A stretch of 64,000 bases of DNA from Siphonodentalium dalli (taxonomy: Eukaryota > Mollusca > Scaphopoda > Gadilida > Siphonodentaliidae): the NCBI GenBank assembly GCA_032622095.1, contig CP136066.1, positions 101,763,319-101,827,318 of the forward strand. Direction: 5' to 3'. Under the pieces are notes generated by a model. That model worked only from the letters and a program-made list of their open reading frames with translations, did not search any database and was not told where the DNA came from. The position numbers and the translations under genes were made by a program. Below, piece by piece: positions 8,388 to 61,930 of this stretch (positions are counted from its first letter, which is position 1; each line of letters opens with the position of its first letter).

Positions 8388-8660
8388 TCCTTAAATTTTG
8401 CCAGGCAATTTTGTCAGCTGTGCGCTGGTGCAGCATTACAAATCCTGTGCCAGTGTATTCTCTTATATATGCGAGTATCCCATAGGGAACACCTCATATA
8501 TAAGAGAACAAACTGGCTTACAAGGTCAAGGTAATTATTGTTAGGCAAATGCATTCTCTTATATATGAGACGCGACCTATGCTCGACTCGCATATATAAG
8601 AGAATGTATTGGCACAGGGTTTTCGTAAAATTTCAGGGAGCTCCAGTTATGGAGGAGAAA
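8388..8660 (-). mobile_element. Twin-hairpin element, copy A (short form)
   Basis: Hairpin 1 (about 8455-8515) pairs attctcttatatatgcgag with tcatatataagagaa. Hairpin 2 (about 8548-8610) pairs cattctcttatatatgag with ctcgcatatataagagaatg. The spacer of about 30 bp (cttacaaggtcaaggtaatt...) is the reverse complement of the spacer in copy B at 27.5 kb, so this copy is inverted relative to B. The right flank is ggcacagggttttcg ... ggagctccag. No coding capacity. Confidence 0.8.
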
Positions 8661-9059
8661 AACACAGGGATATATATTGCATACTTTTGATTGATGTATT
8701 GGAGGTTTATTGTTTTATCGCTGTATTATATAATTGAAATGCCACGAGTTATTGCGCGATTGATTCTTACCAGATCATTGAAGACTGATTTCAGGAAATT
8801 ATCAGTTGTATGACAACTTATGGAATTCCATAGATCTCACAACATATTTAGTTAACTGCTAGGCATGTGCTTTTCATGAGTCTGTGCAGTTTGGCGTTCA
8901 TAGTCTAGAAACAGACTACAACACTCTACTTATTCGAGATTTGCCTGCAAAATTTGTCAGGCAAATTTCATTTCATGACAATCGAATATAGAGGATATAT
9001 TGAAAATAATTAGAGGTATGGTACTGTCTCAGTGGGACTAAGGATACACATCGGATTGC
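8661..9059. other. Gene-free stretch
   Basis: No gene or repeat recognised. Short matches such as gcctgcaaaatttgtcaggc (about 8940) form a small local inverted repeat. Confidence 0.4.
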
Positions 9060-10580: not shown

Positions 10581-10808
10581 TAACACCCTTGCTACCAACC
10601 ATCGAATTATTCTGTTGAATTAGAAACATTCGTTGCTATTGACTCTTCTGCCGAGACGTTATTTCTGCTTCGTCATTGACCAAGAGGAAGAACTCTAATA
10701 ACACCGATAACATTTCATCAGTGAAGCATTGGGCTGCGTGCTGCTCGCATAACAGATAGGCCCGAGGTTACAATCAGTGGTGTAATGTTTTCCAGATATA
10801 TGTCTCAG

Positions 10809-11335
10809 TTAAAGATACGGGCGGCGTTGGCGGTGGGTATGCTGATAAAATATTCACCTCCGTCAAAATCCGCCATAAACAGAAAGAATAGTAAAATATA
10901 GACAGACTTTGTTCTTACACCAATCAGGAATATGGCATAAATAGTATGTTATTGTAAATTTTCCCCTTTGTTATGTAAACAAAAGCAAAAAACGTTACGT
11001 TACCTGGTTTTTAGTTTAGATCCGGATATGGTAAACATAAAGAGCGTTATCTGTTATTGTTGTCCGGATATGGAAATAATATAGAGCGTTTATATCATTT
11101 TTGTGTGATTAACCAATAGAATTGCGCTGTGTTATGTAAACAGAAGCACAACCTCTGTAACACGAGCTGGCTCTTGTTTACGTACACCATCGTACGTCTT
11201 GACGACAATATACTATTTACGCGCTGATTATGTTTGGCATATGAACAAAACTATATATATTTTAATATTCCTTCTGTTGATGGCGATTTGAACAAATCTG
11301 AATATTTCTGCAACGAACGCCGCCCGTGCCTTTAA
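10809..11335 (+). mobile_element. 500-bp TTAA-flanked MITE, copy 1
   Basis: TTAA at 10809-10812 and 11332-11335 flank a 519-bp element. Its inverted ends are AGATACGGGCGGCG and CGCCGCCCGTGCCT. Two AAGAGCG-type boxes lie at about 11040 and 11072. A near-identical copy is at 42.11-42.63 kb; diverged copies are at 34.51-35.01 and 57.76-58.27 kb. The TTAA duplication is what piggyBac-type transposases produce. No coding capacity. Confidence 0.88.
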
Positions 11336-11916
11336 TATTTCGGTGCATATTGTTTCCCCCAGGTCCTGAATGTTCTTAAAATCTGATATATTGACATTTG
11401 GGGTAACTTTTTATGAAAAAAAAATCACATGTCTAGCTGTGAATATGGGTTTAGATCTTGTGTGTTCGTAACTACTGATCACTACTAGGTTCGGGACCGC
11501 ACTATAAATCCTGCTATGTTATGTAAAAAAAAACAACAACAGACAATTATGTTGACCAACCAGAGCCCAGTGTCTATTTTATTCTCTCCCATATTTACAC
11601 CATTATAACCAGCATGCGAACTGTGAACTGCCGACGAAAGTAGCCTCGGCATTCAATTTTGTGTGTGCGAGAATTAGCACCAATTTAAAATATGTGTCGG
11701 AAGGTGTGCCCGCCCATATATAGAACGAGGGGCGCAGACGTGTCATCGTGAATCACGAACAGATCGTGACCAACATTTTAAACGCCACGACTTTTTTGAA
11801 ATAAAAAAACAGCTAGCCAAAGTCAGATCCCCCGAATACGCAGAAAGTTATAAGGGAAGAGATATACCCCAGTATTAAAAGTCTGAGCAAAATTATTTCG
11901 CGTTTATATCAACTTA
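11336..11916. other. Gene-free stretch
   Basis: No gene or recognisable repeat. A polyA/AAC run is present at about 11526-11540. Confidence 0.4.
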
Positions 11917-12828: not shown

Positions 12829-13507
12829 CGCGATGAACTCGAAAACGGCCTAGCCGATTTCGATGAAACTTGGTGTGTGGGGGTATTTTCGGTCGGGGGT
12901 GGCATGGGCCTATTAATTTGTCCGTGCAACGTGACCTTGAAATCGGATCATTTCAAGGTCAAACGCCCGAATATCACGGGATTTCGATGAAACTTGGTAT
13001 GTGGGGGTATTTTCGGCCGGGGGGGGGGGGGGGTGGCATGGGCATATTAATTTGCCCATGCGACGTGACCTTTACCTTGAAATCGGGTCATTCCAAGGTC
13101 AAACCCCCGAATATCACGGGATTTCGACGAACCTAGGGGGTACCTTCGTATGGGGAGTCTCATAAGCATATTCATTTGCCCGTACGACGTGACCTTGACC
13201 TTGAAATCGGGTCAATTCAAGGTCAAATCGCCAAATGGGATTTCGACGAAATTTTATACATAGGGTTACTTTTGTCCACTGAGTGCTTTGGACGGGTCAA
13301 ATCGTGACCCCGACATGACCTTCACCTTCAAAATGATCAATTCAAGGTCAAATCGGGTAAAACCGGATGGATTTCGACGGGCCCGTTTGTCGGGTACTTT
13401 TGTCCGGGCAGTGTTTTGGACTGGTCAAATCGTGACCCCACTTGACCTTGACCTTCAAAATGGACAATTCAATGTCAAAGCCCGGACGAAGTCGGGTCAC
13501 CTTCTAG
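12756..13507 (+). mobile_element. Non-autonomous Helitron-like element, 12.8 kb
   Basis: Likely 5' end TC at 12756 after A, followed by aattatatattttgg and gtctgtctg, a (TG)n run (12786-12828), then diverged tandem units of about 110-140 bp. The 3' end has a hairpin (cccggac-gaa-gtcggg, 13481-13496) and then CTAG-T at 13504-13508. A hairpin about 10 nt before CTRR, insertion between A and T, a GTCT microsatellite and internal minisatellites are hallmarks of DINE/HINE-type Helitrons. No Rep/helicase. The units carry TGACCTTGA and TCAAGGTCA boxes. Confidence 0.65.
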
Positions 13508-14193
13508 TTACATATATAAACACAATGTGGAGGTTTAAACGAACCATGTCCGCAACGTTTAACATAACCATAATGCATGTACGGTCAACAAACAACATCC
13601 CATGCTGTTTTGTCGAACATATCAGAATCCTTACAACCAATGAACTGGAACGATGTAAATATATCGATCAGAAAAAAATATGTTGAATGGCATATTAGTT
13701 AATAAATATATCATGTCTTGGAGTTGACAATATATACACGCGTTATGATTGGCTGCACATTGCTGTACTATTATACAGATAATGAATGGCTTGGAGTTGA
13801 CTATGCCAAAATCGTGACCCCACTTGAACTTGACCTTCAAAATGGACAATTCAAGGTCAAAGCCCGGACGAAGTCGGGTCACCTTCTAGTTACATATATA
13901 AACACAATGTGGAGGTTTAAACGAACCATGTCCGCAACGTTTAACATAACCATAATGCATGTACGGTCAACAAACAACATCCCATGCTGTTTTGTCGAAC
14001 ATATCAGAATCCTTACAACCAATGAACTGGAACGATGTAAATATATCGATCAGAAAAAAATATGTTGAACGGCATATTAGTTAATAAATATATCATGTCT
14101 TGGAGTTGACAATATATACACGCGTTATGATTGGCTGCACATTGCTGTACTATTATACAGATAATGAATGGCTTGGAGTTGACTATGCCAAAA
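13430..14193. repeat. 382-bp tandem duplication including a Helitron-like 3' end
   Basis: Two copies with period 382 bp: cccggacgaagtcggg at 13481 and 13863, CTAG at 13504 and 13886, ctatgccaaaat at 13801 and 14183. Only a handful of differences are visible, so the duplication is recent. Each unit holds about 80 bp of the element's 3' end plus about 300 bp of what was flanking DNA. The identical reading frames in both copies (ending near 13686 and 14068) are by-products. Confidence 0.92.
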
Positions 14194-14286
14194 TAGCGGT
14201 CCGAGAGTAGGAATAGTTCACGAGTCGCAGGCGAGTGGACTATTCCTCATCGAGAATAACTATTTTGGCATATTCAACGACAAGAT
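14171..14286. repeat. Palindrome with CTATTTTGGCA arms
   Basis: The outer arms tggagttgactatgccaaaa and ctattttggcatattcaacg are inverted. The inner arms aggaatagttcac and gtggactattcct pair around 14224. A similar arrangement with the same ctattttggca box is at 36.34-36.44 kb, and half of it at 46.73-46.83 kb. Probably MITE debris of one family. Confidence 0.7.
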
Positions 14287-26208: not shown

Positions 26209-27395
26209 GAATGGGTTTATTGAATGGAATAAGGGTTGGTTCATGTAATAAAATCACCATTATATTACTTCTGTATCTCGCCCACACATGTGGAACCCCG
26301 TTAGTAAACGTCATATACCCCCAATCTATCAAAGCGTAATTTTTGCTTGCATGCATGGATACCATTTAAAGGCCCACTTGATGTTCGAACCACCAGATCA
26401 CATATATAGAATATATACCATATTATATACTATTTGAAAGAGGAAGCTCCAAAACATTGTTTTATCAACTTATCCGGTGTAATAAACTGTGAACATGTTG
26501 TTTTTGTTGAGTTACTGACGTGTTTGTTTAATCTGCATTGTAGTTCAACATGAATTATATTCAATGGAGGGGAATATCTCTAAATCTTAAAGTTATAGTT
26601 ATTCCCCTTCCATTGAAAATACATTTTTGAATTCTGATGCATTCTGGGTGCGTGCCAGGGGGGTTAACTTTATATGATTTCAGCTGTTTTCTATTTCTCT
26701 ATGGGCATCTTCTGAGGCACAGACGTTTCAAATGGTGATGAATTATAGTATTTTAATCATATATTATGTCATAGATTGTTATTAAAACCGTATATGATGG
26801 CACTAGAAAAAAAAACAGTGACCCGAAAATTATATGGGCCTTTAAGAGACTTCTGATCGTTTGCCCTTCTACGGCTTATACATATACGAGTTCTTAAATT
26901 ATTATGCATCAAGGACTATTCTGGGAAATGCACCCGTGAGGGTGGTTTACGCCAAACGTACTTCAGATCCATAGCCATTAGTCTTTTGCGTCACGAAGTG
27001 GTCGCGTTGAACGGCGAAATGACAAACACGACCGACCCCCGCCGGGCAGCGGAAACAATGGCGCTCATAAGGAGCGGATTGTGTCATCAACAACGAACGC
27101 CAGATCATCATCGACGTGCTTCATTGAATTAATAACTTGACATTTATCCCACTTCGACCAAGAAAAGGAGAATTTATTTCATTAACCGAGGTGGTCTGGT
27201 TTTTCGCTGCGAGCGGTTTTCTCCATTACAACGTCAGAGCCATTCTGTACTTCGTCCATACGTGCCTCGCGCCATGCATTGGATTAGACGATCTTTCTCG
27301 TTTGTCAGAATTCGGGGACCCATGTCAATCAAATGTTGAGTCCCCTGAAAATTTCACATCTTAACGTTTTCTGGCGATTTCCCAGCTCGACTATA
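26209..27395. other. Gene-free stretch, GC-richer after 26940
   Basis: No gene recognised. The last 430 bp is visibly richer in GC and free of the repeats seen elsewhere. A 75-codon frame at 27137-27364 has no recognisable domain. Confidence 0.45.
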
Positions 27396-27662
27396 AACCC
27401 TTCCATGACTGCATGGAGCTTCCTAAAATTTTGCGAAAATCCTGTGCCAATGCATTCTCTTATACATGCGAGTCTCCCATTTAGGAGCCTCGCGTATATA
27501 TAAGGGAATGCAGTTGCCTAACATTATTTACATTGACCTTGTAAGCCAGTGCATTCTCTTATATGGGAGAATCCATATGGGAGACTCCCATATATAAGAG
27601 AAAGCACTGTCACTTTATTTTTAATACTACACCAGCGCATCTCCAGCCATGAAAGGGTTAAT
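27396..27662 (+). mobile_element. Twin-hairpin element, copy B (short form)
   Basis: Left flank ggagcttcctaaaattttgc, then hairpin 1 (about 27453-27512; attctcttatacatgcgag pairs with cgcgtatatataagggaat), the 30-bp spacer gcctaacattatttacattg..., and hairpin 2 (about 27551-27604; cattctcttatatgggag pairs with ctcccatatataagagaa). The right edge is atgaaagggttaat. It has the same layout as copy A but opposite orientation. Confidence 0.82.
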
Positions 27663-27853
27663 ACAGAGTTGGGAATCTATATATATTATACACGTCATAA
27701 TTTGCTCGAAAATAACGGTAGGATATCACCCCTGGCAATTATAATATAGCTTTTTTTTTTATAATTTCCAAAGATATCAGCAATCTATTAGACTAATGAG
27801 CTATCACAACAACTCATATCGCACACTGCAAAACGGATATCGAACATACTTGT

Positions 27854-28377
27854 TTAACCCTTTCACGACGGGAGCTGGCCCAACATTAAAGACGCTGTGC
27901 CAATGCATTCTCTTATATATGCGAGTCGACCATAGGTCGCCTCGCATATATAAGAGAATGCATTGGCCTAACCATTTTTTTCATTTTTTATCTTTTTTTC
28001 TTACATTCTATAACCATTTTTATGATTTGTTCTTATATTGTGTAACAACTAATTATTTTTTTTTATCATATTTTCTTACATTCTTTGACAATTTTATGAA
28101 TTTTTTTTATAATTTCTTCTTACATTCTTTGTCAATTTTATTTTTATTATTTTTTTTTTACATTCTTTGACAATTTTTTATCATTTTTTTCTTACATTCT
28201 TTAACAATTTTTTATAATTTTTATTATTTTTTTCTTACATTCTTTAACAATTATAAAACATAATATAAAATTTGTTAGGCCAATGCACTCTCCTATGGTC
28301 GACTCGCATATATAAGAGAATGCATTGGCACAGGGTTTTCGCAAAATTTCAGGAAGCTCCCGTCATGAAACGGTTAA
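27854..28377 (+). mobile_element. Twin-hairpin element, copy C (minisatellite form)
   Basis: TTAA at 27854-27857 and 28374-28377. Hairpin 1 (about 27908-27962) is a 26-bp stem with one mismatch and a 3-nt loop. Hairpin 2 (28285-28327) keeps its outer arm, while the inner arm is cut to cactctcctatgg. Between ggcctaac and gttaggcc lies about 300 bp of a TTTTTCTTACATTCTTTAAC minisatellite in place of the short spacer. Homology with the 43.15-43.34 kb flank continues past the right TTAA, so the true boundary may lie outside. Confidence 0.82.
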
Positions 28378-28699
28378 GGAGATTTTGGAGTTCAAATTTC
28401 AAAACCTCTAAAAATGGTGACCAGAGTTTCTTGAATACTTTCCAACAATCATATTTATATGGGGACCTGATTCATAATTGCATAGTGACCTATATAGCAA
28501 AAATAGATACATAGCTCGTTCGCTATCTGTTTTAGTTCAGATATTTATATTTATATTTTACTTCTTTATAGTAAGAGATTCGAATAAACCTCCTAAATAT
28601 GCAGAAAGTATAAATGACAGGTTATAATACAAAGTTATTATTTCAGCCAAACCTTGGCTGTTTATTTCACAGTGGTTTCTGGGATGATCTGTGTGTCGA
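28378..28699. repeat. Flank homologous to 43.15-43.34 kb
   Basis: gagattttggagtt, aaatggtgacc, tatatggggacctgattca and tagctcgttcgctatctgtt reappear in order at 43155-43335, after twin-hairpin copy D. This suggests that C and D sit in copies of one older repeat, or that the element is longer than its TTAA edges. Confidence 0.65.
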
Positions 28700-31645: not shown

Positions 31646-33947
31646 ACCTCCCAATAGCTCCGATATTTATGACTCGGGAAGCATTACTTTTGGTACTATT
31701 TGTATCACGCCATATCATCATATCCTCATATAACGGAGATCCACATGTATAATTATGTGTGCATGACAATCACAGAGAACACACCCGATCCCATTCGATC
31801 GTATCAAGGACGGTACAGACACAATCAATTATTGTAAGTGGCCTTGTGTTGTGACCACCGGCAGAGAGGTATACACCCGTTATCATTTTACACCGTTGAT
31901 TGTTGACGACCAGCCACGACACAGCACGAGCTCGTCGGTATACAGCTGGCAAAAATGCCAGCTAACAAAACAAAACAAAACAACCTTTGCAGCTGGCATT
32001 TTTGCAGTTTGCAGTGCAATATTGCCAGCGTATGAACGTACCCTTTGTGCTCAGGCACTTTGCCAACCTGGGGAATGTTATCATTCTACTAACATCACTG
32101 AAAATTTCCAAAAAAATCTACCACATCACTTCATAGAGAACATCGTCTGAACTACTCCAAATTGTAAATATTTACATCTCGATTCGGGGCGCAACTATCG
32201 GCTATAATTAAACAAAAATGATTTCGCCATCGAGAGTCATTGCATTTAACTAATATATAAGAATGACGTTGTGTATCATCCATTTGGATTAATATTCGTA
32301 ACAAATAACTACTTTTAGAAAGATTATTCTTAATTTCTATTTGATCACTCTGCCCGGTGTCTGCCGGAGTGTTTCCATCACTTTAATCAAGGAAGACTGT
32401 TCAGAAAAACTGCATTTCAAGAAATCGTTTAATGCTTTAGAATTTTTGTTTTCGGAGATTTATATATATGCTTAAAGACATATTATGGACTTGTTATGGA
32501 CTTTTTCGGGTGCGAGAAATTGATAAGTTAGTGCTCAGGCACTTTGCCAACCTGGGGAATGTTATCATTCTACAAACATCACTAAAAATTTCCAAAAAAA
32601 TCTACCACACCACTTCATAGAGAACATCGTCTGAACTACTCCAAATTGTAAATATTTACATCTCGATTCGGGGCGCAACTATCGGCTATAATTAAACAAA
32701 AATGATTTCGCCATCGAGAGTCATTGCATTTAACTAATATATAAGAATGACGTTGTGTATCATCCATTTGGATTAATATTTGTAACAAATAACTACTTTG
32801 AGAAAGATTATTCTTAATTTCTATTTGATCGCTCTGCCCGGTGTCTGCCGGAGTGTTTCACATCACTTTAATCAAGGAAGACTGTTCAGAAAAACTGCAT
32901 TTCAAGAAATCGTTTAATGCTTTAGAATTTTAGTTTTCGGAGATTTATATATATGCTTAAAGACATATTATGGACTTGTTATGGACTTTTTCGGGTGCGA
33001 GAAATTGATAAGTTAGTGCTCAGGCACTTTGCCAACCTGGGGAATGTTATCATTCTACAAACATCAATGAAAATTTCCAAAAAAATCTACCACATCACTT
33101 CATAGAGAACATCGTCTGAACTACTCCAAATTGTAAATATTTACATCTCGATTATGGGCGCAACTATCGGCTATAATTAAACAAAAATGATTTCGCCATC
33201 GAGAGTCATTGCATTTAACTAATATATAAGAATGACGTTGTGTATCATCCATTTGGATTAATATTTGTAACAAATAACTACTTTGAGAAATATTATTCTT
33301 AATTTCTATTTGATCACTCTGCCCGGTGTCTGCCGGAGTGTTTCACATCACTTTAATCAAGGAAGACCGTTCAGAAAAACTGCATTTCAAGAAATCGTTT
33401 AATGCTTTAGAATTTTTGTTTTCGGAGATTTATATAAATGCTTAAAGACATATTATGGACTTGTTATGGACTTTTTCGGGTGCGAGAAATTGATAAGTTA
33501 GTGCTCAGGCACTTTGCCAACCTGGGGAATGTTATCATTCTACTAACATCACTGAAAATTTCCAAAAAAATATATACCACACCACTTCATAGAGAACATC
33601 GTCTGAACTACTCCAAATTGTAAATATTTACATCTCGATTCGGGGCGCAACTATCGGCTATAATTAAACAAAAAATGATTTCGCCATCGAGAGTCATTGC
33701 ATTTAACTAATATATAAGAATGACGTTGTGTATCATCCATTTAGATTAATATTCGTAACAAATAACTACTTTGAGAAAGATTATTCTTAATTTCTATTTG
33801 ATCACTCTGCCCGGTGTCTGTCGGAGTGTTTCACATCACTTTAATCAAGGAAGACTGTTCAGAAAAACTGCATTTCAAGATCACCAAACAACTTTCCTTT
33901 TTAGGGCCACCACATCTTTCCAAAGATGTACTTCTTCCATTTTGCTA

Positions 33948-34512: not shown

Positions 34513-35013
34513 TTAAAGGTACGGAAGGCCTTGGTGGGTATCCTGTGAACATATTTCCACCTGTCAAAAACCGCTACAAACGAAAATAATATTCAAATAT
34601 AGACATACTTTGTTAATATACAAATGAGAAATATCTCATAAACAGTATGTTATTGTCGTAAATTTGACGATTGTTATGTAAACAAAGCATAAAAAGTTAC
34701 TTTCTTGGTGATTCTTTACATTATGATGGTAAACATAAAGAGCGTTCTTTGTTGCTCAATTCCTTATTTGGAAATAATAAAGAGCGTTTATACCATTTGT
34801 GTGTGATTAGCCAGTAGCATTGTGCTGCCTTCTATAATAACACAATCAGACTATTGTTTAGGTAAAATTTAGTAGGTCTTTATGTAAGCATGATGTTTAC
34901 ACGATAGTGATCGTATATTTGAACCAAAATGTATGCGTTTTAATATTTTTCTGTTTACGGTGTTTGGAACAAATATGAATATTTTCGACAACTAAGCCCC
35001 CTCGTCCCTTTAA
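34513..35013 (+). mobile_element. 500-bp TTAA-flanked MITE, copy 2 (diverged)
   Basis: TTAA at 34513-34516 and 35010-35013. Ends AGGTACGGAAGGCC and GCCCCCTCGTCCCT. Internal boxes aacataaagagcgttctttg (about 34734) and aataataaagagcgtttata (about 34771) match copies 1, 3 and 4, as does aaaatcgcc/gttatgtaaacaaa-type sequence. Confidence 0.82.
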
Positions 35014-36966: not shown

Positions 36967-38228
36967 GAGATTACTTTCAAATTACCTCCCCGGAATAGTG
37001 GCATGCTAAAAATAGATTTCTGGATTTCCCAAGCGATAGTTGGTATGCTACATTTTAAGGAAGCCCACTATCGTGTTGTGGATGACACTATCGGTACTAT
37101 TGAATGTCAAGCAGCCAATCAAAAGCATGGTTTAGGATTAGATAGGCACGTGAGATAAAATATCATGAAATAGTGTGGGTATATTCACATGGAATCGGGC
37201 TCAAATTACGGAAATTATCAGAGCCCCTCTGCCATGGCGTTTAGATGGCAATGACCGTTGATGAAGTTCGTGCTTTAAATTTGGGTATGGCGTATGAGTA
37301 TGTATGTGGATATGGCATTGCGGTGTGGGTAAGTATTCCTTCGCCCTAGCCCCCCTCCAGTCACACACTGTACGGGGAACATATGAGATTACTTTCAAAT
37401 TACCTCCCCGGAATAGTGGCATGCTAAAACTAAATTTCTGGATTTCCCAAGCGATAGTTGGTATGCTAAATTTTAAGGAAGCCCACTATCGTGTTGTGGA
37501 CGAAACTATCGGTAATATTGAATGTCAAGCAGCCAATCAAAAGCATGGTTTAGGCTTAGGTAGTCACGTGAGATAAAATATCATGAAATAGTGTGGGTAT
37601 ATTCACATGGAATCGGGCTCAAATTACGGAAATTATCAGAGCCCCTCTGCCATGGCGTTTAGATGGCAATGACCGTTGATGAAGTTCGTGCTTTAAATTT
37701 GGGTATGGCGTATGAGTATGTATGTGCCTATGTGGATATGGCATTGCGGTGTGGGTAAGTATTCCTTCGCCCTAGCCCCCCTCCAGGCACACACTGTACG
37801 GGGAACATATGAGATTACTTTCAAATTACCTCCCAGGAATAGTGGCATGCTAAAAATAAATTTCTGGAATTCCCAAGCGATAGTTGGTATGCTAAATTTT
37901 AAGGAAGCCAACTATCGTGTTGTGGACGAAACTATCGGTAATATTGAATGTCAAGCAGCCAATCAAAAGCATGGTTTAGGCTTAGGTAGTCACGTGAGAT
38001 AAAATATCATGAAATAGTGTGGGTATATTCACATGGAATCGGGCTCAAATTACGGAAATTATCAGAGCCCCTCTGCCATGGCGTTTAGATGGCAATGACC
38101 GTTGATGAAGTTCGTGCTTTAAATTTGGGTATGGCGTATGAGTATGTATGTGGATATGGCATTGCGGTGTGGTTAAGTATTACTTCGCCCTAGCCCCCTC
38201 CAGTCACACACTGTACGGGGAACATATG
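36967..38228 (+). repeat. Three-unit tandem array of about 420 bp
   Basis: Units begin with gagattactttcaaattacc at 36967, 37385 and 37811 (418 and 426 bp apart; the longer one has an extra tatgtgcc). Each carries ttagatggcaatgaccgttg and cacacactgtacggggaaca. An open frame of 70-96 codons is kept in each unit on the plus strand and a 72-73-codon frame on the minus strand. The differences between units are mostly amino-acid-changing, which argues against coding constraint. Confidence 0.92.
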
Positions 38229-38445
38229 ACCCCATGAAGAAAACAACTCCCTTGTCAGACCCATACATAAAGCTATCTCACACGACCTACGTGGTTGATT
38301 TACCTATTTTGGTTAACTTTGGTTCAATTAGGACTGTGTTTTAATTGTAACGCTCTATACAGGACGCTATTATGAGTAACCTTATTTTCGTGAATAAATC
38401 TTACCCGACAAGTCTAATTGTTTGACAACAAAACGTACTTTATAA

Positions 38446-40870: not shown

Positions 40871-42109
40871 AATTCTCTCCAGCGTTCTTGAAAATGTGAT
40901 ATGTACGGATAGTTCACATATAGTGTGGACTATAATGTCACAATGGTGGACGAGAAAATTCAAGGTAACCGTTATAGCGTTGTAACATACAAGTGTTTCT
41001 AATCCTCTGAAACTAAACTAACTTCACAATTAACACGTGTATAGGCACCGTGCATTTACTCACTTGAGTTGTTATGTAATAGCACGTGCTGTCGCCATTG
41101 TGACGTCACGCGCCTGATTTGTTGACCGAGTAATCCACTGAAAAGTGCAAACTGAATTTCGAAAAACAGTCTGGCAAAGTTCCCATTGATTTAACCATAT
41201 TCCAAAATGTCCTGGGTAAATACACATCACAAGGTAGGAAAACATATTCGGGTATGGAGGAGAAGCAATCGTGACGAGGGAAAATTTGTACTGGATTTAT
41301 TTGAGCTTTTACCAGGTTTTATATGGAGTTAGATCTAATGCCGTATTTAAAAAAGGCAGTGTATTGATGGTGGAAAAGAGGATGAAGGGAGCTTTCAGAT
41401 GATCAGCTTTATTTTCCAGCCAAGACAGGCAACACATATAGACTGAGGGAAATCTTCTTATTGGCTTAGGATTTTGTGATTTAACACTGGCCCCATCGAG
41501 CACACAACCTCGAATTGAACCTTGAGATCTTATTCGACAGATAACACCGTTTATGGGCGAATATATCACGTGATTTTCCTAATCATGACGTGCAATGCCG
41601 GCGGTCGGAGATGACTTGAGAGGATTAGGGATTTTGTTATACGTGTCGTGCTATCTCAGGCACACCGAATGCATTAGGGGGATTAACTCCGTCTATAACA
41701 TCACGTCGACAACTCTACGCTGATTGCTCGGCGGAAAATCTCCGCATTACTCGGTAATTACGTCGGAATAGCCCCCGGGAGAAATCAAGTGAAAACGCCG
41801 AAGCTTTAATTTTGCTCTTTTCGGAAGTTCTGCGTTCCCGATGGCAGAGAGAAGAGAGAGCGAATTTTATGGTTGGAAACCAAATATGGATTATGTTAAT
41901 AAATTTGCCGATGCCGCCCGTCTCGATGGAATCGTTGTGTCATGGTTGGTGTGTTTATTACAATTAGAGCAGGGAAATTAAATATCACCAAACACATAGG
42001 ACATACTAAACCATGATGACCACGAACCTATAAATTACATGACCGGGAACTTACGTCTTATTTGCCAGAAAATGGCGACAATATATCACGCATGGTCATT
42101 TAAAGATAC
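40871..42109. other. Gene-free stretch, repeat-free and GC-richer at 41.58-41.95 kb
   Basis: No gene recognised. The segment 41580-41950 contains none of the window's repeats and has a more balanced composition (cggcggtcggagatg, cggcggaaaatctccgcatt). I cannot tell whether it is a conserved element or part of a non-coding exon. Confidence 0.35.
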
Positions 42110-42626
42110 GGGCGGCGTTGTCGGTGGGTGTGTTGTTAAAATATTCACCTCCGTCAAAAACCGCCATAAATAGAAGGAATAGTAAGATATAGACAGACTG
42201 TGTTCTTATGCCAATCAGAAATATGGCATAAACACTATGTTATTGTCAATTTTTCCCCCTTTGTTATGTAAACAAAAGCAAAAAACGTTACGTTTCCCGG
42301 CTTTTGTTTAGATCCGGATATGGTAAACATAAAGAGCGTTATTTGTTACTGTTTTCCTGATATGGAAATCATAAAGAGCGTTTATATATTTTTGTGTGAC
42401 TAACCAATATAATTGCGCTGTGTTATGTAAACAGAAGCACAACTTCTGCAACACGAGCAGTCGCTTGTTTACGTACACCATCCTACGCCATGACGACAAT
42501 ATACTATTTACGCGATGATTATGTTTGGCATATGAGCGAAACTGTATATATTTTGGTGTTCCTTCTGTTGATGGCGATTTGAACAAATATAAATATTTCT
42601 GCAACGAACGCCGCCCGTGCCTTTAA
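42110..42626 (+). mobile_element. 500-bp TTAA-flanked MITE, copy 3
   Basis: TTAA at 42110-42113 and 42623-42626, with ends AGATACGGGCGGCG and CGCCGCCCGTGCCT. It is very similar to copy 1 over its whole length (gttatgtaaacaaaagcaaa, gatccggatatggtaaacat, gaacgccgcccgtgcc). The minus frame at 42308-42604 is incidental. Confidence 0.9.
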
Positions 42627-42639
42627 ATATTCGTTTTTT

Positions 42640-43154
42640 TATATTTCACGACGGAAGCTGCGCTGGCGCAACATTAAAAACCCTGTGACAATGCATTCTC
42701 TTATATATGCGAGGCGACCTATGGCCTAACAATTTTTTATCATTATTTATCAATTTTTCCTACATTTTTAATAATTTTTATCATTTTATATAACTTGTTC
42801 TTACATTCATTAACATTTTTTATCATTTTTTCTTACATATTATAACATTTTTTATCATTTTTTTCTTATATTCATTAACAATTTTATCATTTTGTATAAT
42901 TTTTTCTTACATTCTTTAACAATTTTATCAATTTTTATGATTTATTTCTTATATTCTTTCTTTAACATATTTTTATATCTTTTTTTCATTTTTTCTACAT
43001 TTTTTTCTACATTCTTTAACAATTATAAAAAATTACATAAAATTGATTGGGCCAATGCGACCTATGGTCGACTCGCATATATATATATATACGAGAATGC
43101 ATTGGCACAGGGTTTTCGCAAAAATTCAGGAAGCTCCAGTCATGGATGGGTTAA
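42640..43154 (+). mobile_element. Twin-hairpin element, copy D (minisatellite form, both hairpins halved)
   Basis: Left cacgacggaagctgcg and cattctcttatatatgcgag-gcgacctatgg, then directly cctaac: the inner arm of hairpin 1 is missing. A TTTTTCTTACATTCTTTAAC minisatellite follows (about 42720-43040). Hairpin 2 starts gcgacctatggtcgactcgc and keeps only its outer arm, with an expanded (TA)n. Right edge gatgggTTAA (43151-43154). Confidence 0.8.
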
Positions 43155-43581
43155 TGAGATTTTGGCGTTAAAATTTCACTACTTGAAAAAATGGTGACCG
43201 AAATCAATAGAACACTTATACATGTGTATCTTATCATCAGTCATACACACACATATATATGGGGACGGGATTCACAGTGAGCTAGGTATAAATGATAGCT
43301 CATTTGCTATTTGTTTTGTTGTTATGATTTATATAGGTGAAGAAAACGAAGGATATGCCTACTCACTTCGATGTGAGTCTTCTGGCGCCATCTTCGAGCA
43401 AATTACGGCGAAGGTTGCCGGACCCGAAGTACGCATTGCATGCGTTCCCTAATGGCCGTTATTTCATTTTCATATATGGCAGATTTTGTGGCAGAAACAA
43501 TACGACGCATTTGCAACGAGTTACTGGGTTACAAATATGTGGTGTTTTTTTTTTACAAGTCGACTCAACGTTTGCTCGTGT
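43155..43581. repeat. Flank homologous to 28.38-28.56 kb, then unassigned sequence
   Basis: The first 185 bp repeat the right flank of copy C (aaatggtgacc, atatatggggac.ggattca, tagctcatttgctatttgtt). After about 43340 I see no repeat. A frame at 43337-43777 crosses the boundary without a domain. Confidence 0.55.
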
Positions 43582-47095: not shown

Positions 47096-48361
47096 CAACT
47101 ATCGATGGAAGAACATTCTTTGGTATGTTCTCTTAGTCGATGTGGTTAGTTCGTGGATAAGATCATCACAGTATAGGCCATACAAGGTTGACGCAGGTTC
47201 CAAACCATTGAAAACATGGCGTGGACAGTGTGTATTCATTGCCGTTTGTCTCGCCCTCTCTCTCTATATATATTGATTCGTTGTTTTTCTCAGTATACAC
47301 GAACGCAGCAATGACCCCTCGTTTGTAGTTCACAGCAACCCGATATCCTGTTGGAAATGAAGCTCGTATTCCTTCTGTATGCCGCTGGTTCCTAAATCTT
47401 CCATTAAATGTTCAATCAATTTCCTCCATATGTCGCTAATCCGCTTATCTGGGCAATCAGATGCGCTGGTTGTAAAAAGGCGTATGCTAAGCCGGTCCCT
47501 CTAATCTTAGTCTCCACTGATTAATTATCGATTACTGTTATTAATTAATTACACTACAAAACGATGTTCTCGTGTGCACCCACGTGACGCGACAACACGC
47601 GAGAGTGAGGACATGGAGCTCAGGAGACAATGTCATTTCCATTAATAATAATTGTGTTGCACCATTGGCTACCACTTCGAAATGCGATTGGTCATGTATT
47701 GATCATTCATATCGGACGTATATATTTTCAGAGGTATTGTAGTTACAGTCGTTTAAAGATGGCATATTTCTTCCTGTCATCACTTTCTACAACAAAAAAC
47801 TTTTTCTACAAAAAAAAAAATTACTACGAAAATAGTTTTGAAGGCACCGTAGCACTACTGTTCACAAACAAACACATGAGAAATAACTGGTTACAAATAT
47901 TTCACATGTAAGTGTTTTAAAAGATAAATTTCCAATCAAACTATAGTAAGGTTCTAAAATTTAGCTACATAAACTGCCTCGATTCATAGTAAATAATTCC
48001 CTACCTATAGTGACAGAAGCTATAGTTGACTTGATTTCCCGGACCCATAATTATTATTTCACACCAGAATAAATGCAAAAAGTTCAGGGAACAGATGCAT
48101 CATCTTGAATTTTTGACATTTCCACCACATCGTGGTGGTTAAAATGCTAATAGCTCCTCGTGTGGAATGCACAAATCAACGATGAAATCACAGACAAACT
48201 GTCTTTCCCCTCATATTGTTCGCACTTCGAAGTTCGCACAATATAGAGCCGAGAACGTACGTTATAAAATATGATCCATAATAATTTGTTCGAACGGTAA
48301 GATATAACGCCTGGCTATTTGAACATTAGTTTTTTCTATATTTTCGAAAGATATTAAAAAG
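47096..48361. other. Gene-free stretch
   Basis: No gene recognised. The segment 47390-47580 is repeat-free and rich in TAATTA-type boxes (ctgattaattatcgattact, gttattaattaattacac). From about 48280 the sequence is similar to 27.69-27.78 kb (ataatttgttcgaacggtaa, gatataacgcctggc). Confidence 0.4.
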
Positions 48362-48735
48362 CTCTTTAACATATCCTCGCGCAAATACGCACACAATCGT
48401 CTTATAATGTGAAATAGGTACGTATAGTGTGATTATTTGATTCTGAAATAAAAAGATAATGGACTCATCGCCGTTATTTCATTTTACGGACCGCAGTGAA
48501 AACACATGTTAAAGAGCGCACACCTGAACATTTGTGAGCTGACTTGTTTGTATCATTGTCCGCGCATAACCTGCTTAGAATCGCCTCATTAAGAGTCGGT
48601 AATGTGACAAAAACGCTCTCATTTTCAGCACAGTAACGACTCAAAATGAGGCGGTTCTAAGCAGATTATATACCTAAAACAAGTTCTTTATAAGCAGACA
48701 ATGTGCATATATTCGGGAGAACAGGCTGAGCTGTT
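48362..48735 (+). mobile_element. About 370-bp stem-loop MITE, copy 1
   Basis: Begins cgcgcaaatacgcacacaat, has acatgttaaagagcgcacac, then a stem of about 45 bp. ctgcttagaatcgcctcatt ... agtcggtaatgtgac faces cagtaacgactcaaaatgag ... ttctaagcag, around an aacgctctcattttc loop. It ends gggagaacaggctg. Copies are at 58.53 kb (minus) and 61.57 kb. Comparing its flanks with 27.75-27.80 kb shows that locus without the insertion. Confidence 0.8.
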
Positions 48736-49097
48736 AGACTAATTTACATCCCAACAACTCATCTCGGATACTGAAAAACCCACGCAGACAAGAGCTCTTT
48801 CCATCAATTTATCACATTATTATAATCAATAAATTTGAAAAATGATCAAGGAAATATGGGTTGATACAAAAATCGGACTTGGCACTGAAAGGGTTAATAC
48901 ATACTTTCAGAAAATTGACAGTTGACTGCATGCATATGGAGTTGTTCGTCAGGATGGTGCCCGTGCAGCTCGGGGTCGTGATAGTTTATGTGACTCATGG
49001 TTTGATATGTGACTTGCTGTATGATATATACATAACCTCATCTTACTTTGTACAATGAGTATATATAGATAACATCAATAGAAGACAATTTCGAGGT
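48736..49097. repeat. Flank resembling 27.78-27.84 kb
   Basis: gttagactaatttacatccc and aacaactcatctcggatact resemble ttagactaatgagctatcac and aacaactcatatcgcacact at 27.79-27.83 kb. aaagggttaatacat (48886) resembles the right edge of twin-hairpin copy B. Otherwise no gene. Confidence 0.5.
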
Positions 49098-57460: not shown

Positions 57461-57763
57461 AGTCCGGTCCGGGATTAACTAGCGAGAACAATCCGGATTC
57501 ACTTGTATGAGCCAGTCGTCTGTTTGCAACCACGGGAAGCCCGGATTCGTGGCTAGGACATCTATCTAGCTGATAATAGCATATATAATGCGAAAATGTC
57601 ACATAATAGTGATTTAAAGAAATTGAAAAAAGTGAGTCGGATCCGGAATCCGGAATCCGTGAAAAAGCACTTTTTCGGCCCGGATTCGTGGCTATGACAT
57701 CTATCCAGCTGATAATAGCACATTCAACGGTGATATTATGCGAAAATGTCACATAATAGTGAT

Positions 57764-58265
57764 TTAAAGGCACGCGAGGCCTTAATTGTCGAAAATATTC
57801 ATATTTGTTCCAAACACCGTAAACAGAAAAACATTAAAACGCATACAGTTTCGTTCATATATACCATGACCATCGCGTAAACAGCATGTTATCATAAAGA
57901 CCTACTATATTTTACCTAAGCAAGAGCCTGATTGTGTTACAGAAGACAGCACAGTGTTACTGGCTAATCACACGCAAATGGCATAAACGCTCTTTATTAG
58001 TTCCATATCAGGAATTCACCAACACAGAACGCTCTTTATGTTTACCATCATAATATAAACAAACACCAGAAAACTTACTTTTTATGCTCTTGTTTACATA
58101 ACAATAGTCAAACATGTGACAATAACATACTGTTTATGCGATATTTATTATTTGTATACGGACAAAGTCGGTCTATATTTTGATGTTCTTTCTGTTTGTA
58201 GCGGTTTTTGACGGGTGGAAATATTTTCACAGGATACCCACCGCCAAGGCCAACCGTACCTTTAA
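57764..58265 (-). mobile_element. 500-bp TTAA-flanked MITE, copy 4 (nested)
   Basis: TTAA at 57764-57767 and 58262-58265. Ends AGGCACGCGAGGCC and GGCCAACCGTACCT. Boxes ataaacgctctttattagtt and gaacgctctttatgtttacc are the reverse complement of those in copies 1-3. The matching place in the left arm of the host foldback (gctttaaatcac, about 56116) shows the uninterrupted site with a single TTAA. Confidence 0.92.
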
Positions 58266-58525
58266 AGCAATTTTTAAAAAGTGGGTCGGATCCGGATCCG
58301 GAAAAAAAACATTTTTTCGGCCAAATCCGAATCCGGAATCCGGATTAAAGTTAGTCCCTACACATAGCAGCCTCCCAGAACATCCATACGATGAGACAGG
58401 CGTGAGCAATACTAGATACAACAAACATCAAGACGAAATTCAAACGTGCATGATATGACTGAAACATCACACATGAATAAACAAAACGGCAAACTTCATT
58501 TAATACAATACATCAGTTAACAAAA

Positions 58526-58889
58526 CAGACTGTTCTCCCGAAAATACTCAAATTATCTGCTTATATTAAAACTTATTTTAGGCAGTAATCTGCTTAGAAT
58601 CGGCTCATTTTGAGTCGACAATGTGCTGGAAATGAGAGCGTTTTAGTCACATTATCAACTCATAAGGAGGCGATTCTACGCAGATTATGTGCGGACAATG
58701 ACACAAATAAGCTAACTCACGACTTTTCAGATGTACGCTCTTTAACATGTGTTTTGAATGTGGCCCGCGCCGTAAAACAAAATAACGGGCATGACTCCAT
58801 TATCAAATACAGAATAAAATAACCACATTATGCACCTATTTCACTCTATAGGTCGATTATGTGCGTATTTGTGTAAGGATATGTTGAAC
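58526..58889 (-). mobile_element. About 370-bp stem-loop MITE, copy 2
   Basis: The reverse orientation of the 48.4 kb element: cagactgttctcccg at the left, ctgcttagaatcggctcatt facing aaggaggcgattctacgcag, gtacgctctttaacatgtgt, and ttatgtgcgtatttgtgtaa with ggatatgttgaac at the right. Confidence 0.82.
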
Positions 58890-60700: not shown

Positions 60701-61091
60701 GCGATCATTGTAATTTTTGCCAGGCGGACACAAATGAAATTCCTTCTTAAAAAACGTCCTCTTCTGAAATGATAAAATTGTTAAAGAATGTAAGAAAACA
60801 ATTATAAAATTGTTAAAGAATGTAAGAAAGAATAATAATAATAAAAAAATTGTTAAAGGATGTGAGACAAAAATGATAAAAAAAAGAGAAAAAATTGTCT
60901 TAAAAACGTCCCCTTCTGACAATGATAAAATTGTTAAAGAATGTAAGAAAAAAATTGTAAAAAATTACAAATTTTATGAAAAAATGATGAAAAATGAAAA
61001 ACAATATTAAAGAATGTAAGAACAATTGATACAAAAATAGAAAGAAAATGTTAGGTCAATGCATTCTCTTATATATGCGAGGCGACCTATG
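60700..61091 (-). mobile_element. Twin-hairpin element, copy E (truncated, minisatellite form)
   Basis: The minisatellite gttaaagaatgtaagaaaaa runs from about 60778 to 61030. It is followed by gttaggtcaatgcattctct and tatatatgcgaggcgaccta, i.e. one arm of a hairpin in inverted orientation. The element stops in the middle of that hairpin at about 61091, where another foldback begins. aaacgtccYcttctgaRatg occurs twice in the minisatellite (about 60753 and 60903). Confidence 0.75.
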
Positions 61092-61300
61092 TCTGAAACC
61101 TGGTTAATAGCAAAGTTTGGTCACATATAGCTTACGCTAATGCGAAAATCCCACATAATAGTCATAAGAAAATACAAAAAAATATCTGGAATCTTTAACC
61201 CGGAATCCGGATAAATTTCTTATGACTATTATGTGGGACTTTCGCATTAGCGTACGCTATATGTGACTAACCATTGCTATTGACCAGGTTGCAGACATAT
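61092..61300. mobile_element. 209-bp foldback related to the 56-58 kb element
   Basis: Arms of about 80 bp: gtcacatatagcttacgcta, then atgcgaaaatcccacataat, face attatgtgggactttcgcat and tagcgtacgctatatgtgac. The loop holds aacccggaatccggat. The arm motifs cgaaaatcccacataatagt and ccggaatccggat are also found in the 56-58 kb arms, so the two are related. Insertion or rearrangement at this point removed the rest of twin-hairpin copy E. Confidence 0.8.
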
Positions 61301-61567
61301 ACCGTGACGGCTGACAAATGTTGCCACAGTTGAGGACGAATTGCGTCTGAAGAAACATGGGTTATACAGTAGTAGCTACCTATTTAGCACACACATGCAT
61401 GCATTCATCTATTGTATATATCGATATGAATGTGGAGCGTGTGTACTATCGCTTTCATACGGCTCCTTGAGTCCTTGTTGTTCTGAAACATTACGTTCTT
61501 TCGCTCTTTGTCCCATTCGCGCGTTCATCCTAATGAAAACAATGCGCAGCGTATATATCAATATAGC
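61301..61567. other. No gene recognised
   Basis: The plus-strand frame 61341-61601 and its minus-strand partner show no domain. Confidence 0.35.
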
Positions 61568-61930
61568 CTTGCTCAAATACGCACATATAATCGACATATA
61601 ATGTGAAATAGGTACATAATGTGATTATTTGATTTTTAAATAAGCAGCAGATAATGGATCATACACGTTATTTCGTTTTACGGCGCGGGCCACGGTAAAA
61701 ACACATGTTAAAGAGCGTGAATCTGAACAATCGTGAGTTTGCTTATATGTGTCATTGTGCGCACATAAACTGCTTCGAATCGCCTCGTTGTGAATCGATA
61801 ATTTGACTAAAACGCTATCATTTTCAGCACACAATCGACTCAAAATGAGGCGATTCTCAGCAGTTTATCAACCTAAAACAAGTATATTTTAAATAGATAA
61901 TATGCGGAAATTTGGGAGAACAGTCTGAAT
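61568..61930 (+). mobile_element. About 370-bp stem-loop MITE, copy 3
   Basis: gctcaaatacgcacatataa, acatgttaaagagcgtgaat, ctgcttcgaatcgcctcgtt facing aaaatgaggcgattctcagc, and gggagaacagtctg match copies 1 and 2 in order. Confidence 0.82.

Follow-up and report, generated by a model that had tools for sequence, protein, structure and literature searches.

The 64,000-nucleotide stretch analysed here (the window) corresponds to C6:101763319-101827318 of the 2.23-Gb, nine-contig genome of Siphonodentalium dalli. It contains five related copies, A to E, of a short element that is built on hairpins. Matches to the hairpin arm, GCATTCTCTTATATATGCGAG, with three mismatches or fewer number 11 in the window, versus a mean of 0.00 in shuffled sequence, and blastn links all five loci to one another. 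The five related copies named in the original prediction are therefore real, as are the ~30-bp spacer in A and B and the minisatellite common to C, D, and E. The features are as follows.

8405..8665, + strand: copy A, short subfamily, tips decayed; hairpins at 8449-8517 and 8545-8613, spacer at ~8518-8542
27394..27661, - strand: copy B, short subfamily; left TTAA at 27658-27661, right TTTA (one change from TTAA) at 27394-27397; hairpin 1 at 27547-27609, hairpin 2 at 27446-27517
27662..27853, + strand: host repeat R, left part, the insertion site of copy C
27854..28377, + strand: copy C, long subfamily, TTAA at each end
27868..27873, + strand: ACGGGA at bp 11-16 of the left tip of copy C (piggyBat counterpart, GCGGGA at bp 11-16)
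27899..27967, + strand: hairpin 1 of copy C, with a 27-bp stem, one mismatch, 5 bp, and a 3-nt loop; z -13.7
27968..28275, + strand: AT-rich minisatellite of copy C, unit approximately TTCTTACATTCTTTAACAATTTTT
28279..28329, + strand: hairpin 2 of copy C, one arm shortened; z -3.7
28378..28582, + strand: host repeat R, right part; a homologue adjoins copy D at 43156-43370
42637..43154, + strand: copy D, long subfamily, left tip damaged and hairpins mostly lost; minisatellite at about 42728-43050
42659..42670, + strand: palindrome TGCGCTGGCGCA at bp 19-30 of the left tip of copy D, the best preserved in the window
60745..61091, - strand: copy E, a fragment without tips that consists of one hairpin-1 arm (61051-61091) and minisatellite

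The family has thousands of copies in the host genome, in two subfamilies. Members of the short subfamily (the A and B type) are ~263 bp long and have a 25-30-bp spacer, and those of the long subfamily (the C and D type) span ~400-600 bp and include the AT-rich minisatellite. Genome queries with C and A returned at least 124 matches (4835 first-look candidates, 40 scored) and at least 84 matches (8032 first-look candidates, 40 scored), respectively. Exact matches to the left tip (25 nt) number 5503 in the genome, in part within satellite arrays, and those to the right tip (26 nt) number 2023; the same tips read backward as a control occur 0 times. Divergence from the consensus at non-CpG sites ranges from 3.6% to 14.3% among 33 short copies, with a median of 7.2%. 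A derivation of the minisatellite from the spacer of A and B is unsupported, since in six comparisons the score is equalled or exceeded by 56 to 276 of 500 shuffles.

No open reading frame of at least 150 aa overlaps copies A to E, and the window holds no tRNA. A Pfam scan of 10 of the 66 window open reading frames of at least 85 aa detected no domain above the cut-off; one frame gave two sub-threshold matches, to zf-Vps39_C and NMD3. An exact search of viral contigs with the arm returned 0 matches. The element is thus short, non-coding, and present at high copy number with inverted tips, which is the profile of a miniature inverted-repeat transposable element (MITE). Its long inverted repeats cover most of its length (74 of 79 positions beyond bp 45 in the short consensus), as in foldback elements, a term that describes a structure rather than a superfamily.

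Other repeats also lie in the window. A self-complementary repeat at 61088-61299 starts at the loop of E's broken hairpin, and the other half of that hairpin does not follow. Positions 13427-14194, 32047-33880, and 36967-38229 are occupied by large tandem repeats with 382-, 485-, and 426-bp units that are 96-99% alike.

Insertion at TTAA and the two ends

When the flanks of copy C were joined through a single TTAA and used as a query, at least 40 matches were found in the genome (40 scored of 1573 candidates). C's own flanks account for two of these, covering query positions 1-138 and 135-261, and the overlap between them is the four bases TTAA. The other 38 cross the junction at 135-138 as one match, judging by match extent, and a few of them look like mutual duplicates. 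One further site, in L106, was read base by base and is continuous, with 73% identity over 192 columns and GTAA where C has TTAA. Because C lies in repeat R and 38 places match its joined flanks unbroken, these places appear to be without the element. Of the two joined-flank queries inspected, only that of C reveals a clean empty site; most spanning matches for the joined flanks of other copies look tandem or nested.

Ends were compared in 30 short copies, after removal of copy A itself (L078) and of a duplicate of L093 (L094). Eleven of them have an exact TTAA on both sides, 12 have it on one side only, and 7 have none. L089, one of those with two, shows no tip after its left TTAA. The mean frequency of the top base is 0.84 in the first 30 columns on the left and 0.91 in the last 30 on the right, and it is 0.39 and 0.38 just outside. 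The family thus exhibits the TTAA target-site duplication of the piggyBac superfamily, and the earlier proposal of a transposon-like family with TTAA duplications is supported, including at the empty site.

Copies C and D both reside in copies of repeat R. Their right flanks are ~64% alike and their left flanks match weakly (E 0.0013), which is what would be observed if both belonged, flanks included, to a single larger repeat and were not separate insertions. However, this reading is very improbable, and as a claim about boundaries it is already contradicted: the flanks are repeat R itself, 38 scored places match the joined flanks unbroken, the flanks of C and D have no match among the other fetched long copies, and A and B sit in other contexts. 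The two copies may descend from one ancestral insertion that was copied with R, or the same TTAA may have been hit twice. Another copy of the left part of R, at 48242-48367 and 48712-48799, is apparently split by a ~370-bp repeat that recurs at 58526-58887 and 61558-61927.

The tips of the element consist of TTAA followed by CCCTTTCA. The inverted ends that had been predicted are present, with TTAACCCTTTCA or near copies (two mismatches or fewer) at both ends of B and C. The 16-bp inverted repeat, CCCTTTCATGACGGGA, agrees between the ends at 14 of 16 positions in the short consensus, where both changes are at the right end, and at 16 of 16 in the long consensus. These CCC tips with short inverted repeats conform to the pattern of piggyBac elements, in which CCCTT is described as the most conserved tip motif (PMC10813416).

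At the left end, bp 17-32 read GCTGCGCTGGTGCAGC in the short consensus and GCTGCGCTGGCGCAAC in the long consensus. This segment is a palindrome centred at bp 24.5, and ACGGGA precedes it at bp 11-16. Palindromic pairs were counted on alignment columns, with a maximum of 8. In the 30 short copies, the left end forms 7 pairs in 5 copies, 6 in 8, 5 in 7, 4 in 9, and 3 in 1. Hence, 20 of 30 left ends have at least 5 pairs, and all 30 right ends have at most 2. Among 16-mers of the window as a whole, at least 5 pairs occur in 4.0% and at least 6 in 0.84%. As the palindrome at bp 19-30, most of the 19 long copies carry TGCGCTGGCGCA or a near variant. A palindrome from approximately bp 17, the presumed site of the transposase C-terminal domain, is thus found at the left end only.

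Two piggyBac-type transposases with solved DNA complexes use sites in this region. The piggyBac palindrome spans bp 17-33 and is bound by a dimer of the cysteine-rich domain (PMC7351741). In the left end of piggyBat, GCGGGA (bp 11-16) and an imperfect palindrome (bp 19-30) are bound by the transposase core and a cysteine-rich-domain dimer; its right end is without a palindrome (PMC11707139). Unlike ends are required in piggyBat: on a pair of left ends, the form of the transposase that was tried did not work until it was given an additional C-terminal domain (PMC11707139).

The asymmetry of the element is confined to the same region. When the left half of the short consensus is compared with its right half in reverse, 14 of 16 positions agree over bp 1-16, 15 of 30 over bp 17-44, and 74 of 79 from bp 45 onward. 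The corresponding values for the long consensus are 16/16, 18/31, and 67/97, of which the last includes the minisatellite and a 13-base cut of hairpin 2. Apart from its ends the element is palindromic, in that each hairpin forms a palindrome of its own and the second is approximately the first in reverse complement. The mismatch over bp 17-44, set against this palindromic remainder, means that the two ends are unlike at the very place where transposase binding is expected. The element is thus symmetric except for the presumed transposase site at ~bp 17-44, and the small palindrome near one tip, which had gone unnoticed, is likely the enzyme-binding site.

Superfamily assignment and piggyBac families of the same genome

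Searches of the genome for the piggyBac transposase domain (PF13843) listed at least 128 matches (649 candidates, 116 scored), many of which are in open frames of 500-720 aa. In 14 of the listed matches, a 562-aa frame is broken by TGA, and in two of these also by TAG, which suggests either that these copies go back to a single source and share its stop codon or that an intron went unrecognised. Thirty transposase loci were fetched. Of these, 25 belong to six examined groups, and L054, L065, L067, L073, and L075 were left out. Tips were mapped in five groups by the similarity edge between copies or, for family F77, from matching TTAA tips that flank the gene.

In three of the five families with mapped tips (F57, F66, and F77), bp 17-32 form 7 of 8 pairs. 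Family F50 has 2 of 8 pairs there and a 23-base palindrome at bp 17-39 that was read by eye, and the readable tip of F48 has 3 of 8 and is without a palindrome. In the remaining group, F49, one unmapped TTAA tip scores 7 in this segment. F77 is the only control family with both tips readable, and its second tip scores 0.

Based on these features, we propose to place the element in the piggyBac superfamily as a non-autonomous, MITE-like transposon, putatively moved in trans, and we assign this reading a probability of roughly 0.92. Several observations count against it. No transposase-bearing element with the same tips is present among the 30 fetched loci of the at least 128 listed matches, where the nearest candidates are a weak blastn match in L077 (E 0.32) and one L056 tip with 17 of 26 letters. 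The seven short copies that are without an exact TTAA at either end form a second objection. Finally, among the window copies only D has a well-preserved palindrome, F48 is without one, and F77 is the sole control family in which the restriction of the palindrome to one end can be read.

The other superfamily that duplicates TTAA includes Kolobok-type elements such as T2-MITEs, and the target duplications would suit them as well. However, Kolobok termini are described as 5'-RR and YY-3' (PMC9587614), whereas the tips here start with CCC and end with GGG, and their layout matches that of the genome's own piggyBac families. A Kolobok-type origin is already contradicted by these data and retains next to no probability.

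The assignment to piggyBac places the element with a known kind, the piggyBac-type MITE; what is new is the nested-palindrome body, the localized end asymmetry, and the satellite derived from the tip. No description of the family was found in openly licensed full-text papers, in agreement with the original statement that no described family has this plan, but the superfamily itself is well known.

Several described elements resemble it in part. As in piggyBat of Myotis lucifugus, TTAA is duplicated, bp 11-16 hold a GCGGGA-like motif, only one end has a palindrome over bp 19-30, and the two ends are unlike (PMC11707139). This likeness rests on the position of the palindrome, not on its letters. 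In contrast to piggyBat, the element has no transposase gene and no motif and palindrome pair repeated at 44-bp steps. The element also has large nested palindromes, which piggyBat is not known to share. With piggyBac of Trichoplusia ni, the element shares TTAA, a CCC tip, and a palindrome at bp 17-33 (PMC7351741), but the piggyBac palindrome is present at both ends, asymmetrically placed from the tips (PMC11707139), and that of the element at one end only. The Pokey-family, piggyBac-type MITEs mPok1 and mPok2 of Daphnia are likewise short and non-autonomous (PMC4912750); they are not known to have a nested-palindrome body or a minisatellite.

Within the element, the transposase core may read bp 11-16 at both ends, by analogy with the piggyBac and piggyBat structures, and a cysteine-rich-domain dimer on the left-end palindrome could provide the left/right asymmetry that the reaction needs. 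Two rounds of inverted duplication might have produced the element, with the two ends kept different only over ~bp 17-44. By this account, the body would have been free to become palindromic, and the ends would have had to stay different. The minisatellite would be a secondary expansion that marks the long subfamily.

Other piggyBac-like sequences also occur in the window. A ~536-bp repeat at 42096-42631 abuts the left end of D and recurs at 10805-11339 (91%), 57762-58266, and 34513-35013. Because parts of it match the flanks of transposase domains in L066, L069, L071, L074, and L076, it looks like a non-autonomous derivative of that piggyBac family. At 48842-48897 there is another tip, TTAA-CCCTTTCAGTGCC, and the same tip with the bases that follow it is found beside the element in L092; it probably represents a further piggyBac-like family.

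Hairpins and their possible roles

Nine segments of the five copies were folded. Both hairpins of A, both of B, and hairpin 1 of C are strong (z -6.6 to -13.7). Hairpin 2 of C (z -3.7) and hairpin 2 of D (z -4.0) are weaker, and the segments for hairpin 1 of D (z -1.0) and for E (z -1.4) are not hairpins. With five strong, two weak, and two absent, the full twin plan exists in only two of the five copies. The original prediction that five copies share two hairpins is thus wrong, since both are full only in A and B: C has one full and one shortened hairpin, D is without most of one arm of each stem, and E retains a single arm. The best hairpin of C does exist, but its extent was understated as 27908-27962 with a 26-bp stem, and it actually occupies 27899-27967.

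In the short consensus, both hairpins are perfect, with 27 bp, one mismatch, 5 bp, and a 3-nt loop, and they start ~45 bp from each tip. Because hairpin 2 is nearly the reverse complement of hairpin 1, the whole short element also folds as one long hairpin. The majority consensus of the long subfamily (n=19) has an equally good hairpin 1 and a hairpin 2 that is shortened as in C, although, judging by fold counts, some of the long copies appear to retain more of that hairpin. Between the subfamilies, the inner stem differs by pair-preserving changes, which could reflect selection on source copies or conversion between arms.

Two roles had been suggested for the hairpins, as recognition structures for the transposase and as precursors of small RNAs. 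The first would make them extra transposase-binding sites, or cruciforms that aid or restrain synapsis or excision in the manner of the inner sites of piggyBat. Such a role is compatible with the piggyBac assignment and differs from it only in what the hairpins do. In its favour, piggyBat has inner repeated sites, and removal of the innermost is described as raising activity (PMC11707139). The position of the hairpins at ~45 bp from the tips in the consensus, the perfect stems of the short consensus, and the pair-preserving differences between subfamilies also fit, as does divergence that is lower in stems (0.061) than at the ends (~0.09) among 33 short copies. However, the predicted site is at bp 11-32 of the left tip, and this motif is undetectable in the three consensus hairpins tested, where 103 to 992 of 1000 shuffles score as high. 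The idea that the hairpins are copies of the tip-binding site is therefore unsupported. The shortening of hairpin 2 in the long majority consensus is also unfavourable, even though some copies keep more of it. We consider an extra binding or cruciform role doubtful, with perhaps a minor share of the probability.

Small RNAs derived from MITEs are known, and the size and stem length of the hairpins fit precursors of microRNAs or siRNAs, as does the single long fold of the short consensus. Pairing and covariation also lie above all 500 shuffles (91.5% versus 90.6% for pairing, 0.072 versus 0.060 for the covariation score), although related sequences can exceed shuffles in this test. The number of cells with a two-sided change is reached by only 2 of 500 shuffles. 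However, the excess in pairing is small, and neither the number of pairs with a two-sided change (reached in 108 of 500 shuffles) nor that of pair types (79 of 500) stands out. In 33 short copies, changes in paired positions comprise 166 one-sided breaks and 69 one-sided G-U changes, as opposed to 15 two-sided Watson-Crick changes, 4 two-sided G-U changes, and 13 two-sided breaks. Stem divergence is no lower than that of the spacer and loop (0.052). Pairing within copies thus decays near-neutrally, which speaks against small-RNA genes that are being maintained. Moreover, no hairpin RNA family of Rfam matches the window at the gathering threshold, so that the hairpins have neither the match to a described family nor the maintained pairing expected of a microRNA or other Rfam RNA. 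A role as precursors for which the hairpins are kept is accordingly quite improbable.

With the motif undetected and the decay near-neutral, a role of the hairpins in transposition is possible but unsupported, and a small-RNA role is unlikely. Under the piggyBac assignment, the hairpins would simply be part of the mobile template, and would be neither a recognition site nor structures selected after insertion.

A 37-bp satellite made of the left tip

An unexpected result is that the left tip, bracketed by its terminal and an internal TTAA, is also found in arrays of a 37-bp satellite. Among the first 100 listed left tips, all of which are on contig C1, 49 lie within 5 kb of another. Of 42 short spacings among them, 25 deviate from a multiple of 37 by at most one base, versus 3.4 expected. 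Right tips listed in the same stretch of C1 are not clustered (0 of 25). When listed left and right tips were paired in the first 36 Mb of C1, one short element of 271 bp and one convergent pair of 1376 bp (C1:11013907-11015282) were found. Exact unit-to-unit junctions number 202 genome-wide. Satellite arrays are found at the following places.

C1:3257437-3272879
C1:4907860-4910905
C1:4922016-4924003
C3:37594442-37597134
L108

A 181-base sample of L108 consists of head-to-tail 37-bp units. Three units have the tip at their start, as TTAACCC or ATAACCC, the two after them start with TTAATTATTTTAT, and all keep the GGAGCTGCG part that follows. The unit begins with the terminal TTAA and extends to a second one at bp 34-37 that is kept in both the short and the long consensus. 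Because of this second TTAA, the unit (TTAA, the 16-bp repeat, the 16-bp palindrome, and one further base) is bracketed by two target sites.

The arrays could have arisen if one element inserted into the internal TTAA of another and the rest was lost, leaving tandem 37-bp units that might then have grown into arrays of presumed transposase-binding sites. That the left tip is a transposable or amplifiable module of its own is a speculative and rather unlikely extension. A precedent for a foldback-like, non-autonomous element whose terminal repeats feed a satellite is Tetris of Drosophila virilis, the source of the TIR-220 satellite (PMC4079207). The Tetris repeats are 220-bp tandem units inside long terminal repeats (PMC4079207), whereas the 37-bp unit described here is the tip itself between two TTAA sequences.

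The element illustrates how an odd structure can be assigned to a superfamily by a reusable test, namely a 16-bp inverted repeat followed by a palindrome from bp 17 at one end. This layout holds for the element and for four of the five unrelated transposase families with mapped tips in this genome (one by eye), and agrees with two solved transposase-DNA structures. The element constitutes a natural experiment in end asymmetry. The 37-bp tip satellite offers a direct case of how transposon ends may seed satellite DNA, and if its units are indeed transposase-binding sites, the tip arrays could titrate transposase.
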